A stretch of DNA of 64,000 bases. Origin: Enterococcus silesiacus (GTDB lineage: Bacteria > Bacillota > Bacilli > Lactobacillales > Enterococcaceae). Position 1 is the stretch's first letter, and every line of letters begins with the position of its first letter. The notes under the pieces were generated by a model. That model saw only the letters and a program-made list of their open reading frames with translations. It searched no databases and was not told where the DNA came from. This document shows positions 12,945 to 17,197 of the stretch, in pieces. The stretch is from positions 3,596,001 through 3,660,000 of the forward strand of contig CP013614.1 of assembly GCA_001465115.1 (NCBI GenBank), in the 5' to 3' direction. The position numbers and the translations under genes were made by a program.

Positions 12945-13130
12945 TGAGGTTGGGACAGAAGCGTCTAATCTCGAAAAATAAGAAGGAATTCACGAAAATT
13001 GCTCTTCAAATTTTTGTGAATTTCAGCTTATTTCCGAAGGGATTGCTTCTGCTTCCACCGTTTATTCGGATAAAAAGATCTTGGGGCATAACTTGAAAAG
13101 TTATGTCCCAGGATCAAATTTTTGCTATAG
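12945..13130 (+). repeat. Intergenic repeat of the GAGGTTGGGACAGAAG family with terminator
   Basis: It begins GAGGTTGGGACAGAAGCG, contains TTTCAGCTTATTTCCGAAGG and CCACCGTTTATTCGGAT, and ends with a hairpin in which GGGCATAACTT pairs with AAGTTATGTCCC. The same blocks recur at 26513-26765, and a short form occurs at 23175-23286. It probably terminates the hydrolase operon. The rest of the 12903-13284 gap holds the lanM leader, with TTGACT at 13249 but no well-spaced -10. Confidence 0.6.
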
Positions 13131-13305
13131 AATATGCTGGGTAGAGGCCAGTGTATCAATCTAGAAGAGCTAAGGATTGAACGTTTCAGAACTAGGAATC
13201 TATTCTCTATTCCTTTTAAAAAAGCAAAAATAAAATTAGCGTAGTATTTTGACTATTTTTTTATTATTATAAAGAGAAGGGACAATGAATGCTAAAGGAG
13301 AGCTT

Positions 13306-16209
13306 ATGATGATTGAAGAAGTGACATACAGTTACGCCGCAACACTGTCAGAAAGAATCGACTGCTGGAAGAATCAAACGATAGAAGCAGATAAAGAACG
13401 TTATTTGGAGCAATGGCAAGCACGTAAAAGCTTGTTGAAAGCACCAGATTATCAGAAAATGTTCCAGCATTATCATTGGGATGAAGCAACTTTTAGTGTG
13501 GGACTGATGCCATTTACTGAAGAACGAGCGCAATTGTTATTACCAATGATCGAAAAAAGTGACTGGTTTCAATTACATAGGCGATTATTTTCAGCTGAGA
13601 TTCCAATCAAAGATCTCAGCTTGACCGCTGCCTTACGTTTTCACCTAGATTACTATAAGCAGCATATTCAGACATTGCTACAAAAATTTCCATTGATTCA
13701 GCTCTCGGCAGTAGTAATCGAGGATCTGATCGCTCAACTATCCGATGAATTCTTTTTCATCGCCCAAAAAACATTGGCTTGGGATGTTCATCAGATGATT
13801 GAAGAGTATCAACTACAAGCTGAATCAAAAGAAGAAGAATTCGCTAACTATATCAAGGAGTTTCTTGGTGATAAACAACGTACCTATCTTTTTTATGGTG
13901 AATACCCCACCCTGGCTAGAATTCTTGCTACCAGATTGACATTTGCCTGTGAAATGATCGAGGCGTTTTTCTCCTCTTTGAATGATGCTACTGAACAATT
14001 GGCAGAGGTATTTGCTATCACGACACCAATGAACCTCACTCAAATAAAGCTAGGGCAAGGCGATAGCCATGAACGTGGCAAAACAGTGATTCAGTTTCAA
14101 GTGCAAGAAAAGGCATTGATTTTTAAATTTAAGAATCTTGAGATTGGTGAGCGCTTTAATACCTTGTTGACGTATATTGAAGAACTAAATCCAACGGTTT
14201 CTTTTTATAAAATCAAACGGATCGTGCAACCAACCTTTACCATTGAGGAAAAAGTTGCGTATGAAGAGTGTTTAGAAGAAAGTGAAGTAATAGATTTTTA
14301 TCACAATTATGGTCAGTTGCTAGCGATTGTTTATTGGTTAGGGGCAACGGATTTGCATATGGAAAATTTAATTGCTAACGGACCTCATCCTGTGTTGATC
14401 GATGTTGAGACGTTGATTCGTCCTGAAATGTTTAAACTGACCAAAAAAATGGCGAGACAAACTCGAATAGAAAAGCATTCAGTCATTGTTGCAGGCTTGC
14501 TGCCGCAAAAAAAACAATGGAAGCGTGAGTTGGAGATGGATGCATTATCCGGCACAAAACAGAAATTACCGAAAAAGGTCAGAAGGCTGAGAAATGATCG
14601 TTCTAGTGATATTGCTTTTCAACTAGAAGAAGCTTATATGGATGGTGCTCAAAATATTCCACGCCTGGCAGGTAAAGAAGTCGATTATCAAGACTACCGC
14701 CATGTGATCCAACATGCATTTAAGGAGATGAACCAGCTACTATTAGCAAATAAAACGGAATTTATCGAGAAAGTCAAAGCGTTATTTGCAAATACAACGA
14801 TTCGGCTAATCTATAGAGATACTCAAGATTATGGCAATTTATTGAACTTTACCTTGCACACAGAGAGTATGTCTAATTATATTGAGCGGGAAAAGATCAT
14901 TGAAAACTTATGGGCCAGTCAAATCATTCCAGAAGTGCTGATTCCATTTGAAATTCAAGTGATGTTAGATCACGATGTTCCCCTGATTACAGCGAATACT
15001 TCTTTAACGAATGTCTATACAGATGGTCACGAGCTACTTCAAGTATTAGCAAAGTCACCTTTGCAGGATACAGTGGAGCATATGGAAAAAATAACGGAGA
15101 AAACCAGTCACTTTTCCTATCTTCTATTAAAAGAAAGTTTAGGTACGCTAGAATATAATACCCAAGAAATAACAATTCCAACGAGAAACGGATCAATTGA
15201 CGAACCGTTAGTACAAAAAGCTGCCGATATTGGAGATAAAATCCTTGATCAGCTTGTTCTGGAGCCAGAACATGGTGAAGTAGATTGGATGTCAGTGCTT
15301 CCAGAGTCTGATGACGAGATCAGCATTGTTTATCCTGATACTGACCTTTACGGAGGAAGTGCAGGTGTGTATTTATTTTTCGTTTATCTAAATCATTTGG
15401 TTCCTAAAGAGAGCTATCAAGAAGTGATCGACTTACTGGAAAAAGAAATCTTTTTAGGCGAGGGCAAAAAAGATACTTACGAGAGCGCTTTTTTTGATGA
15501 AGGGATGCGCGTGACTGTCGCTTTTTATGTGACAAGATTGCTCAATGATGCCAAGCATCGGATCTATCTGGAAACCAGTTTACAAGCCTTAAAAGCACGT
15601 CAAATCGTAACGGAAAATCAATCCAATGAATGGCTTTACGGCAAAGCTAGTTTATTAGCCGTTTTAGCAGCTATCTACCAAACCTATGCTAGCACAGATG
15701 CATACGAAGTACTTTTAGCCTATTCACAAGCCGTGACTTGTAAAGAAATGGAAGACAATAGTTTTGCTCACGGCTACGCTGGTGTCTGCTATGGTTTAAG
15801 CAAGGCAAATCAAGTCCTTAACGAGACAAAGACTAAAGAAAAACTAAACTGGTATCAACAAGCATTTGAAAAAAGGCTTGAAGAAAACAAGCAGCTGAAT
15901 AATTCTTGGTGTAAAGGAACTACTGGGATCAAAGAAGTGTGCGAATTGCTGAATATCAAGTTCCCTGATGAAAAGTTCAAAAAAATAGATGAAATGAGTA
16001 GGGCAGATGATTGTCTGTGTCATGGCACATATGGAAATAAAGACAATTATTTAGGTGATATTTTTATATTAAATGATGGTGTTATTAAATTGAAGACTGA
16101 TCCAGCAAGTGTCCCTGTAGGGTTATTCTGTGGATTAGCTGGAGTTGGGTTTCAAGTGCTAAGAGCATACGAGCCGTCCCATGTTCACTCCTTGTTATTT
16201 ATTAAGTAA
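13306..16209 (+). CDS. lanM: Class II lanthipeptide synthetase LanM
   Basis: A bifunctional enzyme of about 967 residues that dehydrates Ser/Thr in a precursor peptide and closes thioether rings with Cys. The N-terminal DUF4135 dehydratase shows GQGDSHERGKTVIQF, the active-site region GATDLHMENL and LIDVETLIRPEM. The C-terminal LanC-like cyclase has LYGGSAGVYLFFVYL, FAHGYAGVCYGL and all three zinc ligands: Cys in NNSWCKGTTG and Cys-His in DCLCHGTYGN. Nothing essential is missing. The ATG at 13306 follows AAAGGAGAG; an upstream ATG at 13285 is also possible. A precursor gene lies 81 bases downstream. No LanT, protease or immunity gene is adjacent. Confidence 0.95.
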   Translation: MMIEEVTYSYAATLSERIDCWKNQTIEADKERYLEQWQARKSLLKAPDYQKMFQHYHWDEATFSVGLMPFTEERAQLLLPMIEKSDWFQLHRRLFSAEIPIKDLSLTAALRFHLDYYKQHIQTLLQKFPLIQLSAVVIEDLIAQLSDEFFFIAQKTLAWDVHQMIEEYQLQAESKEEEFANYIKEFLGDKQRTYLFYGEYPTLARILATRLTFACEMIEAFFSSLNDATEQLAEVFAITTPMNLTQIKLGQGDSHERGKTVIQFQVQEKALIFKFKNLEIGERFNTLLTYIEELNPTVSFYKIKRIVQPTFTIEEKVAYEECLEESEVIDFYHNYGQLLAIVYWLGATDLHMENLIANGPHPVLIDVETLIRPEMFKLTKKMARQTRIEKHSVIVAGLLPQKKQWKRELEMDALSGTKQKLPKKVRRLRNDRSSDIAFQLEEAYMDGAQNIPRLAGKEVDYQDYRHVIQHAFKEMNQLLLANKTEFIEKVKALFANTTIRLIYRDTQDYGNLLNFTLHTESMSNYIEREKIIENLWASQIIPEVLIPFEIQVMLDHDVPLITANTSLTNVYTDGHELLQVLAKSPLQDTVEHMEKITEKTSHFSYLLLKESLGTLEYNTQEITIPTRNGSIDEPLVQKAADIGDKILDQLVLEPEHGEVDWMSVLPESDDEISIVYPDTDLYGGSAGVYLFFVYLNHLVPKESYQEVIDLLEKEIFLGEGKKDTYESAFFDEGMRVTVAFYVTRLLNDAKHRIYLETSLQALKARQIVTENQSNEWLYGKASLLAVLAAIYQTYASTDAYEVLLAYSQAVTCKEMEDNSFAHGYAGVCYGLSKANQVLNETKTKEKLNWYQQAFEKRLEENKQLNNSWCKGTTGIKEVCELLNIKFPDEKFKKIDEMSRADDCLCHGTYGNKDNYLGDIFILNDGVIKLKTDPASVPVGLFCGLAGVGFQVLRAYEPSHVHSLLFIK

Positions 16210-16228
16210 CACAATCTGAAAAAAGAAC

Positions 16229-16257
16229 TTTACTTATTTGAGAGAACGTTTTATAAT
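16229..16257 (+). promoter_or_regulatory. Promoter of the lanthipeptide precursor gene
   Basis: TTTACT (16229-16234), exactly 17 bases, then a consensus TATAAT (16252-16257). It lies in the 81-base gap between lanM and the precursor, so the peptide can be made at a higher level than the enzyme. Confidence 0.75.
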
Positions 16258-16290
16258 CTAAGTATTAACGCAAGGGGGAGAAATAATATC

Positions 16291-16458
16291 ATGAGAAAAT
16301 TATCGATTGAAAAAATGGAAGCAGCAAAAGATTTGAAAAAAGTGGATGCAGTTGTAGGGGCTTCGTTTGAAAGAAGTAAACGTTCTGACGATATAATGAA
16401 AGACACTGAAGAATCTAGCGCAGCTATTGGCTGGTATACAGTACTTATTTGTTTCTAA
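16291..16458 (+). CDS. lanA: Candidate class II lanthipeptide precursor (LanA), 55 aa
   Basis: A 55-codon gene behind AAGGGGGAG. The N-terminal part is a charged helix typical of class II leaders and ends DLKKVDAVVGA, which fits the pattern ELxxVxG(G/A) cut by C39 peptidases, giving a leader of 24 residues. The remaining 31 residues contain four or five Ser, two Thr and a single Cys, with the C-terminus ESSAAIGWYTVLICF. One Cys allows only one (methyl)lanthionine ring, for instance Thr50 to Cys54; other Ser/Thr could be dehydrated. Identity rests on position beside lanM, its own promoter and terminator, and leader form; no homologue search was possible. Confidence 0.75.
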   Translation: MRKLSIEKMEAAKDLKKVDAVVGASFERSKRSDDIMKDTEESSAAIGWYTVLICF

Positions 16459-16495
16459 AAAAAAAGAACTAGGTTTATCCTAGTTCTTTTTTTTT
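16457..16495. terminator. Bidirectional terminator after the precursor gene
   Basis: AAAGAACTAGG pairs with CCTAGTTCTTT around a five-base loop, flanked by a run of A on the left and T on the right. It serves the precursor gene and the convergent minus-strand genes. Confidence 0.9.
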
Positions 16496-16826
16496 AATTT
16501 GATTTCTTTAAAATCATAATACCGAATGCTTCAGTTCCAGATATAAGTAATAAAACTAAATTTATCATCCAATAATAAGAAACTTGGTTATAGGCTACCA
16601 CATCATAAAGAGTTGTACCTAAAATAAACAGTAGAATTATAGTAACGATAAATGAAATAAAACTTGCTGTTGAAATAATTTTCTTTCCTCGTTCATCTTT
16701 TCCTTCTTTACTAAAGAAAAAGTAGACTGAGTAAATAATAAATATCAACGAAAGTCCAATAATTAAAAAACTAGACCAGTGATTTACAGGCAAGTTATCA
16801 AAAAAAGATTTAAGTGATTCAGTCAT
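16494..16826 (-). CDS. Small membrane protein beside an Xre regulator
   Basis: A 110-residue protein with three predicted membrane helices (about residues 16-36, 47-66 and 80-100) separated by a basic loop GKDERGKK. It starts 19 bases after the regulator gene behind GGAAAGGA, so the two form an operon. Pairs of a short Xre-type regulator and a small membrane protein are common in Firmicutes. Because it faces the lanthipeptide precursor it could be an immunity protein, but nothing in the sequence shows this. Confidence 0.75.
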   Translation of the reverse strand: MTESLKSFFDNLPVNHWSSFLIIGLSLIFIIYSVYFFFSKEGKDERGKKIISTASFISFIVTIILLFILGTTLYDVVAYNQVSYYWMINLVLLLISGTEAFGIMILKKSN

Positions 16827-16845: not shown

Positions 16846-17100
16846 TTAGTCGGTTTCTTCGTTCGTTTGCTCGTCTTCTGTCAATTTTTTGAAAGTGAAG
16901 ATTTGTTCAATCGGCACTTCGAAAACGTCTGCTATGTCATGAGCCAGTAAAAGGGAAGGATTATACCTATTTCTTTCTAACTGAATAATTGTTTGTCTAG
17001 ATACTCCCACCTTGTCAGCAAGTTCCTGTTGGGTCATGCGTTTCATGGCTCTGTAGACGTGAATGGAACTCTCAAAAGATGAGTTCTTCTTTTTTGGCAA
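16846..17100 (-). CDS. Xre-family helix-turn-helix regulator
   Basis: An 84-residue DNA-binding protein. The helix-turn-helix spans [20 protein letters not shown], followed by [19 protein letters not shown] and [10 protein letters not shown], the usual form of short YozG-like regulators. The C-terminus is acidic. I place the start at TTG 17100, seven bases after GGAGG; a TTG at 17115 lies upstream of that ribosome site and is unlikely. It probably controls itself and the small membrane protein downstream. Confidence 0.88.
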
Positions 17101-17197
17101 TGCAAATCCCTCCAATAGTCTAATTTATGTATTAAATAAAAAGCGCATAGTCAATATACCATATCTTACTTTCACTTACAAATATCATGCAGATAAA

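Follow-up and report, generated by a model that had tools for sequence, protein, structure and literature searches.

What is a lanthipeptide synthetase gene doing beside a single small precursor gene with one cysteine, when the usual export and protection genes are not found around it? We address this question for a locus of Enterococcus silesiacus contained in a stretch of 64,000 nucleotides (contig CP013614.1, positions 3,596,001 to 3,660,000; hereafter the window) of a genome assembled as one contig of 3,928,141 bases and labelled G000. An earlier note, made from the letters of the window, had described an orphan class II lanthipeptide locus. Comparison with a sample of 105 family genomes, including 22 of the genus, revealed a module of four genes: lanM and the precursor gene lanA on the plus strand, convergent with the genes for a small membrane protein (here TM) and an XRE-type regulator on the minus strand. 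Judged from the alignments, the precursor's core and TM are matched and exchanged together as one cassette, and the cassette types cross the species tree. That the locus is a stripped-down lanthipeptide signalling module with several specificity types, acting like the CylR1/CylR2 branch of cytolysin control, is a reading for which we see an even chance. The features in the window are:

13285..16209, plus strand: lanM, class II lanthipeptide synthetase (TIGR03897, CylM match, catalytic residues)
16229..16257, plus strand: lanA promoter-like site TTTACT-17-TATAAT (consensus scan)
16291..16458, plus strand: lanA, precursor of 55 residues (homologues beside lanM, substitution rates)
16291..16362, plus strand: leader, predicted to end after Ala24 (VGA), with the cleavage site placed by alignment
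16438..16452, plus strand: predicted ring segment Thr50-Val-Leu-Ile-Cys54 (Ser/Thr four residues before Cys)
16456..16496, no strand: terminator-like inverted repeat with an 18-pair stem, between the convergent lanA and TM genes
16494..16826, minus strand: TM, membrane protein of 110 residues, proposed cognate sensor and/or immunity protein
16846..17115, minus strand: XRE-type helix-turn-helix protein of 89 residues, CylR2-related

Gene content and conservation of the module

The LanM protein scored 503.7 bits against TIGR03897 (cut-off 304) and also matched DUF4135 and LANC_like; among PDB entries it matched CylM (E 2e-76) and LicM2 (6.2e-53). For CylM, the available part of PMC4550811 lists residues for phosphorylation (K274, D347, H349, N352, D364), for phosphate elimination (D252, H254, R506, T512) and for zinc binding (C875, C911, H912). 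LanM has identical counterparts of all 12, and these are invariant in the 19 unbroken orthologues, G003 being left out of the count. By this measure LanM is complete, with intact dehydratase and zinc-cyclase residues, as the earlier note had proposed. Its true start is probably 13306 rather than the opening of the reading frame at 13285, because most relatives start at the equivalent Met and a GGAG lies just upstream. At a threshold of E ≤ 1e-130, orthologues occur in 20 of the 105 genomes, every one from a single genus; the relatives found in this way include E. crotali, E. ureasiticus, E. plantarum, E. moraviensis and E. caccae. In the nearest relative, G003, lanM is interrupted and lies in two pieces (G003:C7:69033-71947); lanA and TM are still open there.

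The lanA gene starts 81 bases past the lanM stop. Its 55 codons, the promoter-like site and the terminator-like stem were found as described earlier, the latter two by consensus scans, which are no proof of function. Both TTTACT and TATAAT are invariant across the 20 aligned upstream regions. A precursor of 55–57 residues adjoins lanM in 20 of the 22 genus genomes, the same 20 that carry a lanM orthologue, and none was found in G013 and G016. The earlier note had named absence of the small frame from genomes that retain lanM as a refutation of its reading; no such case was seen among the 20. The ratio of nonsynonymous to synonymous substitution rates (dN/dS) was 0.016–0.278 in 10/10 same-type pairs, i.e., the frame is under purifying selection. 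From this selection and its retention across the genus, we hence conclude that the 55-codon gene is real, beyond chance.

The 20 aligned precursors share a leader that starts with MR..SIEKME and ends with VGA in 17 cases and with IGA, VGT or VGV once each. It is followed by FER, a variable middle and a single core Cys; the leader end and the lone Cys had been described correctly. The precursor of G015 carries an extra Cys within the leader. A Ser or Thr precedes the core Cys by four residues in 20/20 precursors (pattern [WY][ST]xx[IV]C), and since there is one core Cys, the product is probably a class II lanthipeptide with one five-residue thioether ring. The single-ring prediction of the earlier note agrees with this pattern and with the intact LanM residues. 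Each of the 20 loci has one lanA-like precursor beside lanM, and none is a two-precursor cluster. No Pfam or NCBIfam family fits the precursor. A protein database gave 25 precursor matches, one of them the window's own, and all organism-named ones are from Enterococcus. Three core variants are deposited under the single name E. rotai, and in two relatives (P0010, P0016) Phe precedes the Ser.

Strong TM matches occur in all of the 20 lanM genomes and in none of the other 85; G084 has a 21st match, but a weak one (36% over 53 residues, E 8.5e-4). In ten same-type pairs its dN/dS was 0.021–0.136. Because a gene of the same distribution lies beside the locus, the terms "orphan" and "absence of immunity genes" are not supported; the XRE gene had been overlooked as well. 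A single-sequence model of TM, of low confidence (mean predicted local distance difference test score 68), shows three long helices. The loop SKEGKDERG is invariant in 18/18 complete TM proteins, and the C-terminal half varies along with the peptide. A PDB profile search with TM gave nothing below E 0.1.

The XRE protein matched HTH_3 (1.1e-13) and CylR2 (1utx, E 1.7e-10), with a PbsX-family regulator slightly better (4.8e-11). It adjoins TM in 20/20 carriers and is distributed more widely than TM, i.e., in 36 of the 105 genomes at E ≤ 1e-15, paralogues counted. Its identity is 97–100% in 16 nearer relatives and 90% in three genomes of core type D (see below). This conservation is not special, because the neighbouring Ca-ATPase behaves similarly (94–98% and 83–85%, respectively). 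QueA, XRE, Ca-ATPase and Kup surround the module in 19/19 relatives. Upstream MerR, GNAT and hydrolase genes adjoin lanM in just 7/19 and were rejected as module members.

The locus has no LanT, as the earlier note had said, and also no protease or ABC immunity genes among its neighbours. A C39-type LanT exporter is usual in class II systems, although not universal. The suggested look for such transporters elsewhere revealed two C39 domains in the own genome and, across the genus, C39 domains outside the locus in 21/22 genomes. The C39 transporter of a second LanM cluster in G000 was used as query on six genomes. It has close relatives in G021 (82%) and G015 (70%), and in G020 a match of 31% over nearly the full length; among the matches listed for G017, none spans the first 125 residues.

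Matched types of core peptide and membrane protein

The cores fall into about seven types, named by eye:

Type A, core WYTVLICF: G000, G012
Type B1, core GGWSRIICLP: G001, G014, G019
Type B2, core GGWSRLVCWP or LICWP: G007, G010, G011, G018, G021
Type B3, core NGWTRLICF: G008, G020
Type C, core GGWT[KR]LICF: G004, G005, G009, G017
Type C2, core AGWSRFICW: G003
Type D, core YGWSRIICLF: G002, G006, G015

Sorted by eye in the same way, the TM proteins fell into the same types as the cores, with 0 mismatches in 20 (two TM genes are incomplete); type C2 is uninformative because it has a single member. Mapped onto a tree built from three flank proteins, the types required 11 changes (minimum 6, shuffled mean 13.4, as low in 5/200 shuffles), and 13 changes when G016 and G022 were included (minimum 7, shuffled mean 15.3, as low in 12/200). 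From these counts, the types are slightly clustered, D forming one clade, yet A, B1, B2, B3 and C are scattered over the species tree.

Identities along the locus were compared for 16 chosen genome pairs. The sisters G007 (B2) and G014 (B1), with support 100/100, are 95% identical at the lanM end, 94% in the leader and 100% in XRE; for the core and the two TM halves the values are 82%, 79% and 82%. G014 and G019, both of type B1, share 66% at the lanM end, yet 91% in the core and 94 and 92% in the TM halves. Between G000 and its sister G003, windows of 250 bases gave 76–90% over lanM, 59 and 68% over lanA/TM and 98% over XRE.

Mantel tests against the core distances used 17 of the 20 carriers, omitting G003 (broken lanM) and G018 and G021 (incomplete TM). 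The TM C-terminal half gave r 0.75 (0/2000 permutations) and the N-terminal half 0.54. With the flanks partialled out, these values were 0.69 (0/2000) and 0.41 (1/2000), compared with 0.16 (149/2000) for the leader and 0.03 (782/2000) for lanM. In a second version, from which the three D genomes (G002, G006, G015) were also omitted, 14 genomes remained. Here the TM halves reached 0.69 (C-terminal, 0/2000) and 0.48 (N-terminal, 1/2000), XRE 0.28 (135/2000), the leader 0.10 (318/2000), lanM 0.00 and the flanks -0.02. Third codon positions of these 14 genomes gave 0.46 for the C-terminal and 0.45 for the N-terminal half of TM (0/2000 each), -0.01 for the leader, 0.01 for the last 100 codons of lanM, 0.21 (136/2000) for its first 300 codons and 0.04 (748/2000) for XRE. 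When D was included, third positions of XRE (0.47) and lanM (0.44 and 0.32) also correlated with the core. Leader and lanM do not track the core once the D group is excluded. We read the exchange block as the core plus the whole of TM, with borders near the leader and XRE and with amino-acid change mostly in the TM C-terminal half. The lack of mismatches together with the block boundary at the leader suggests a functional match between core and TM.

Signal, bacteriocin or linkage

Pairwise swapping of a peptide and a membrane protein points to one of two roles: signalling between cells, or an antibiotic peptide that comes with an antidote. In the cytolysin system, according to the available parts of PMC11343131 and PMC3709268, CylLS'' acts through CylR1 on CylR2 with no phosphorelay. 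In the corresponding signalling scheme for our module, LanM would recognise the conserved leader, dehydrate the Ser or Thr four residues before the Cys and, near the C-terminus, close a single thioether ring of five residues. After release and presumed export, the peptide would be bound by the variable C-terminal half of TM. TM would relay its state via the invariant loop SKEGKDERG to the well-conserved XRE protein, in a contact that we predict, and XRE would alter transcription. The invariant loop and the peptide-linked variable half suit a protein that reads a variable peptide and touches a constant partner. The module would operate without a toxin or dedicated transporter beside it, and core and TM would diversify and swap together as specificity types. 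Tentatively, and with more doubt than belief, we further propose a lanthipeptide pheromone: a one-ring peptide without toxin, a cognate membrane receptor and a CylR2-like regulator, with pherotypes swapped between Enterococcus species as a core-plus-receptor cassette for which the conserved leader and regulator gene would serve as homology arms.

The locus might instead encode a small bacteriocin (lantibiotic); TM would then be the cognate immunity protein, XRE would be a simple regulator, and competition between strains would have diversified the types. Antibacterial activity is common among LanM products, toxin and immunity proteins diversify in matched pairs as core and TM do, and TM is small, hydrophobic and present in the same 20 genomes. 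However, XRE is CylR2-related, and no dedicated exporter lies at the locus. Moreover, lanA and lanM are open in both G018 and G021, yet the first has a truncated and the second a split TM gene; such damage is harder to reconcile with an immunity protein than with a sensor. Provided that the assemblies are correct, this counts mildly against an essential immunity role. We consider the bacteriocin the main rival, but less likely than signalling.

Several observations weigh against the signalling module. In one database relative of the precursor, P0007, Ser replaces the conserved Cys, as a natural variant or an error. Some same-type pairs are not close, e.g., G000/G012 with 75% in the core and G009/G017 with 73% in the TM C-terminal half. 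With D included, XRE (0.53), leader (0.40), flanks (0.40) and lanM (0.39) also correlated with the core in the 17 genomes, and XRE still did so with the flanks partialled out (0.40, 1/2000). TM has just weak Pfam matches at E ≤ 0.01, e.g., to DUF4418 in 6/18 members and DUF2178 in 3/18; two database relatives bear a precomputed DUF2178 label. No C39 domain was found in G017, which carries the module. In the window genome the lanM and XRE promoters share 13/15 bases, a value reached in 2/60 shuffles. Across the 12 genomes scanned, just G020 stood out besides, with a different sequence, and because 10/12 were no better than shuffles, a shared operator was rejected as evidence. Searching the own genome for the XRE motif, with up to 3 mismatches allowed, gave the XRE site alone. 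XRE also lies near QueA and Ca-ATPase without lanM or TM in G016, G022 and G095, and its promoter motif persists in G016; XRE may therefore have another job. Finally, core and TM are neighbours, their 3' ends about 36 bases apart, so that linkage alone can move both together.

This proximity, and the occurrence of XRE without the module, would fit TM and XRE as an unrelated pair beside lanM/lanA, where a recombination-prone segment moves core and TM jointly without functional matching. We regard this as improbable: TM accompanies lanM in 20/20 genomes and is strongly matched in 0/85 others of the family, and the leader touches the core yet does not follow it at third positions of the 14 genomes. 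Moreover, lanM, lanA and TM are absent together from G016 and G022, though XRE is kept at the site. Since G016 is sister to the three D carriers (support 100/100), loss of the module as a unit is the simplest reading there; alternatively, the unit may have been gained twice.

Known systems and other lanthipeptide loci

The proposed signalling module resembles cytolysin in its class II, CylM-like synthetase and in a small membrane protein next to a CylR2-related XRE protein, both encoded opposite to the peptide-gene strand. TM is likened to CylR1 by its small size, three modelled helices and its place beside XRE. Unlike cytolysin, there is one precursor with one core Cys, lanM comes first, transporter, protease and ABC immunity genes are missing from the locus, and the regulator genes are convergent with lanA and have a separate promoter region. 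Bibacillins 1 and II of Bacillus are, in the available part of PMC11343131, class II clusters with CylR1/CylR2-like genes; one bibacillin II component is described there with one predicted ring, and a bibacillin peptide as able to trigger CylR1/R2. They are two-component lantibiotics, whereas our locus has a single precursor, for which antibacterial activity is not known. In Clostridia, genes of the LanM family beside agr operons likewise belong to a quorum-sensing setting from which the usual lanthipeptide genes are missing. As far as the accessible part of PMC10301443 describes these LanM-like proteins, however, conserved catalytic residues are absent from them and no precursor is reported; in our locus the residues are intact and the precursor adjoins.

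In the agr and comQXP pherotype loci, signal and receptor form a variable block with conserved sequence on either side, and strains exchange this block. Our module shares this layout of variable peptide and membrane protein between conserved flanks; unlike these loci, it contains no histidine kinase or response regulator.

Precursors with an MRKLSI leader also occur away from lanM, two in tandem in G007 (L158 6663-7093) and another in G001 (L160 6760-6936). They sit between LysR-type and HisC-like genes, with no LanM within their 14-kb stretches; G014 has a similar place, where the precursor copy contains a stop. These extra precursors may be modified in trans. They would suit a peptide that is one half of a two-component lantibiotic with its partner encoded elsewhere. 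As such leader-sharing extras occur in 3/22 genus genomes, one with a stop, and 17/20 carriers show none at that threshold, we hold this to be very improbable.

Other LanM frames of about 1040 residues, 28–30% identical to the window's LanM, occur in many genus genomes. The second LanM cluster of the own genome (L086 5340-10905; G000:C1 about 2,195,340-2,200,900) encodes the C39 transporter used above, a 1037-residue LanM and a Ser/Cys-rich precursor of 61 residues with a run of 11 Ser. In G007, a lantibiotic cluster (L162 2111-12276) combines two LanM and two precursors with a C39 transporter; after it come an XRE gene and a 112-residue membrane protein. The latter was rejected as a TM homologue, with just a short DER motif in common (hhalign probability 1.2). 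G013 C16 (L161) contains several LanM frames, of which one has internal stops, and, next to a C39 transporter, more than one short peptide of the double-glycine type. In the window, upstream of lanM, two long inverted repeats (16 and 18 pairs) lie at 12985-13115 and may be a dispersed repeat. At 13238-13271 follows a ATAGTATTTTTNCTA-like imperfect inverted repeat and then TTTTTTATTATTAT, both kept in most of the 17 non-D genomes while the surrounding DNA diverges.

Among the open-access matches listed, mostly judged from the listings, no title or abstract concerns this locus. In their available parts, literature naming these species treats other ribosomally synthesized and post-translationally modified peptides, and PMC12715929 does not treat this locus. 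Taken singly, the parts of the module are of known kinds, and for class II a component with one ring was predicted before in bibacillin II. Their combination, in which a one-ring lanthipeptide without toxin goes with a membrane partner that matches it and is exchanged with it, and which most of the genus group retains, was not among the open-access matches listed.

CylLS'' sensing via CylR1 and CylR2 is described as not understood in the available part of PMC3709268, and in that of PMC11343131 it is called unexplored how widely such sensing occurs in other clusters. If the bacteriocin were true, the locus would represent a minimal one-ring lantibiotic with a 110-residue immunity protein. As a signalling module, it would provide, with no toxin involved, about seven matched peptide/membrane-protein types that have the same kind of enzyme, leader and regulator, and these matched types would offer a direct route to the residues by which a small membrane protein reads a lanthipeptide.

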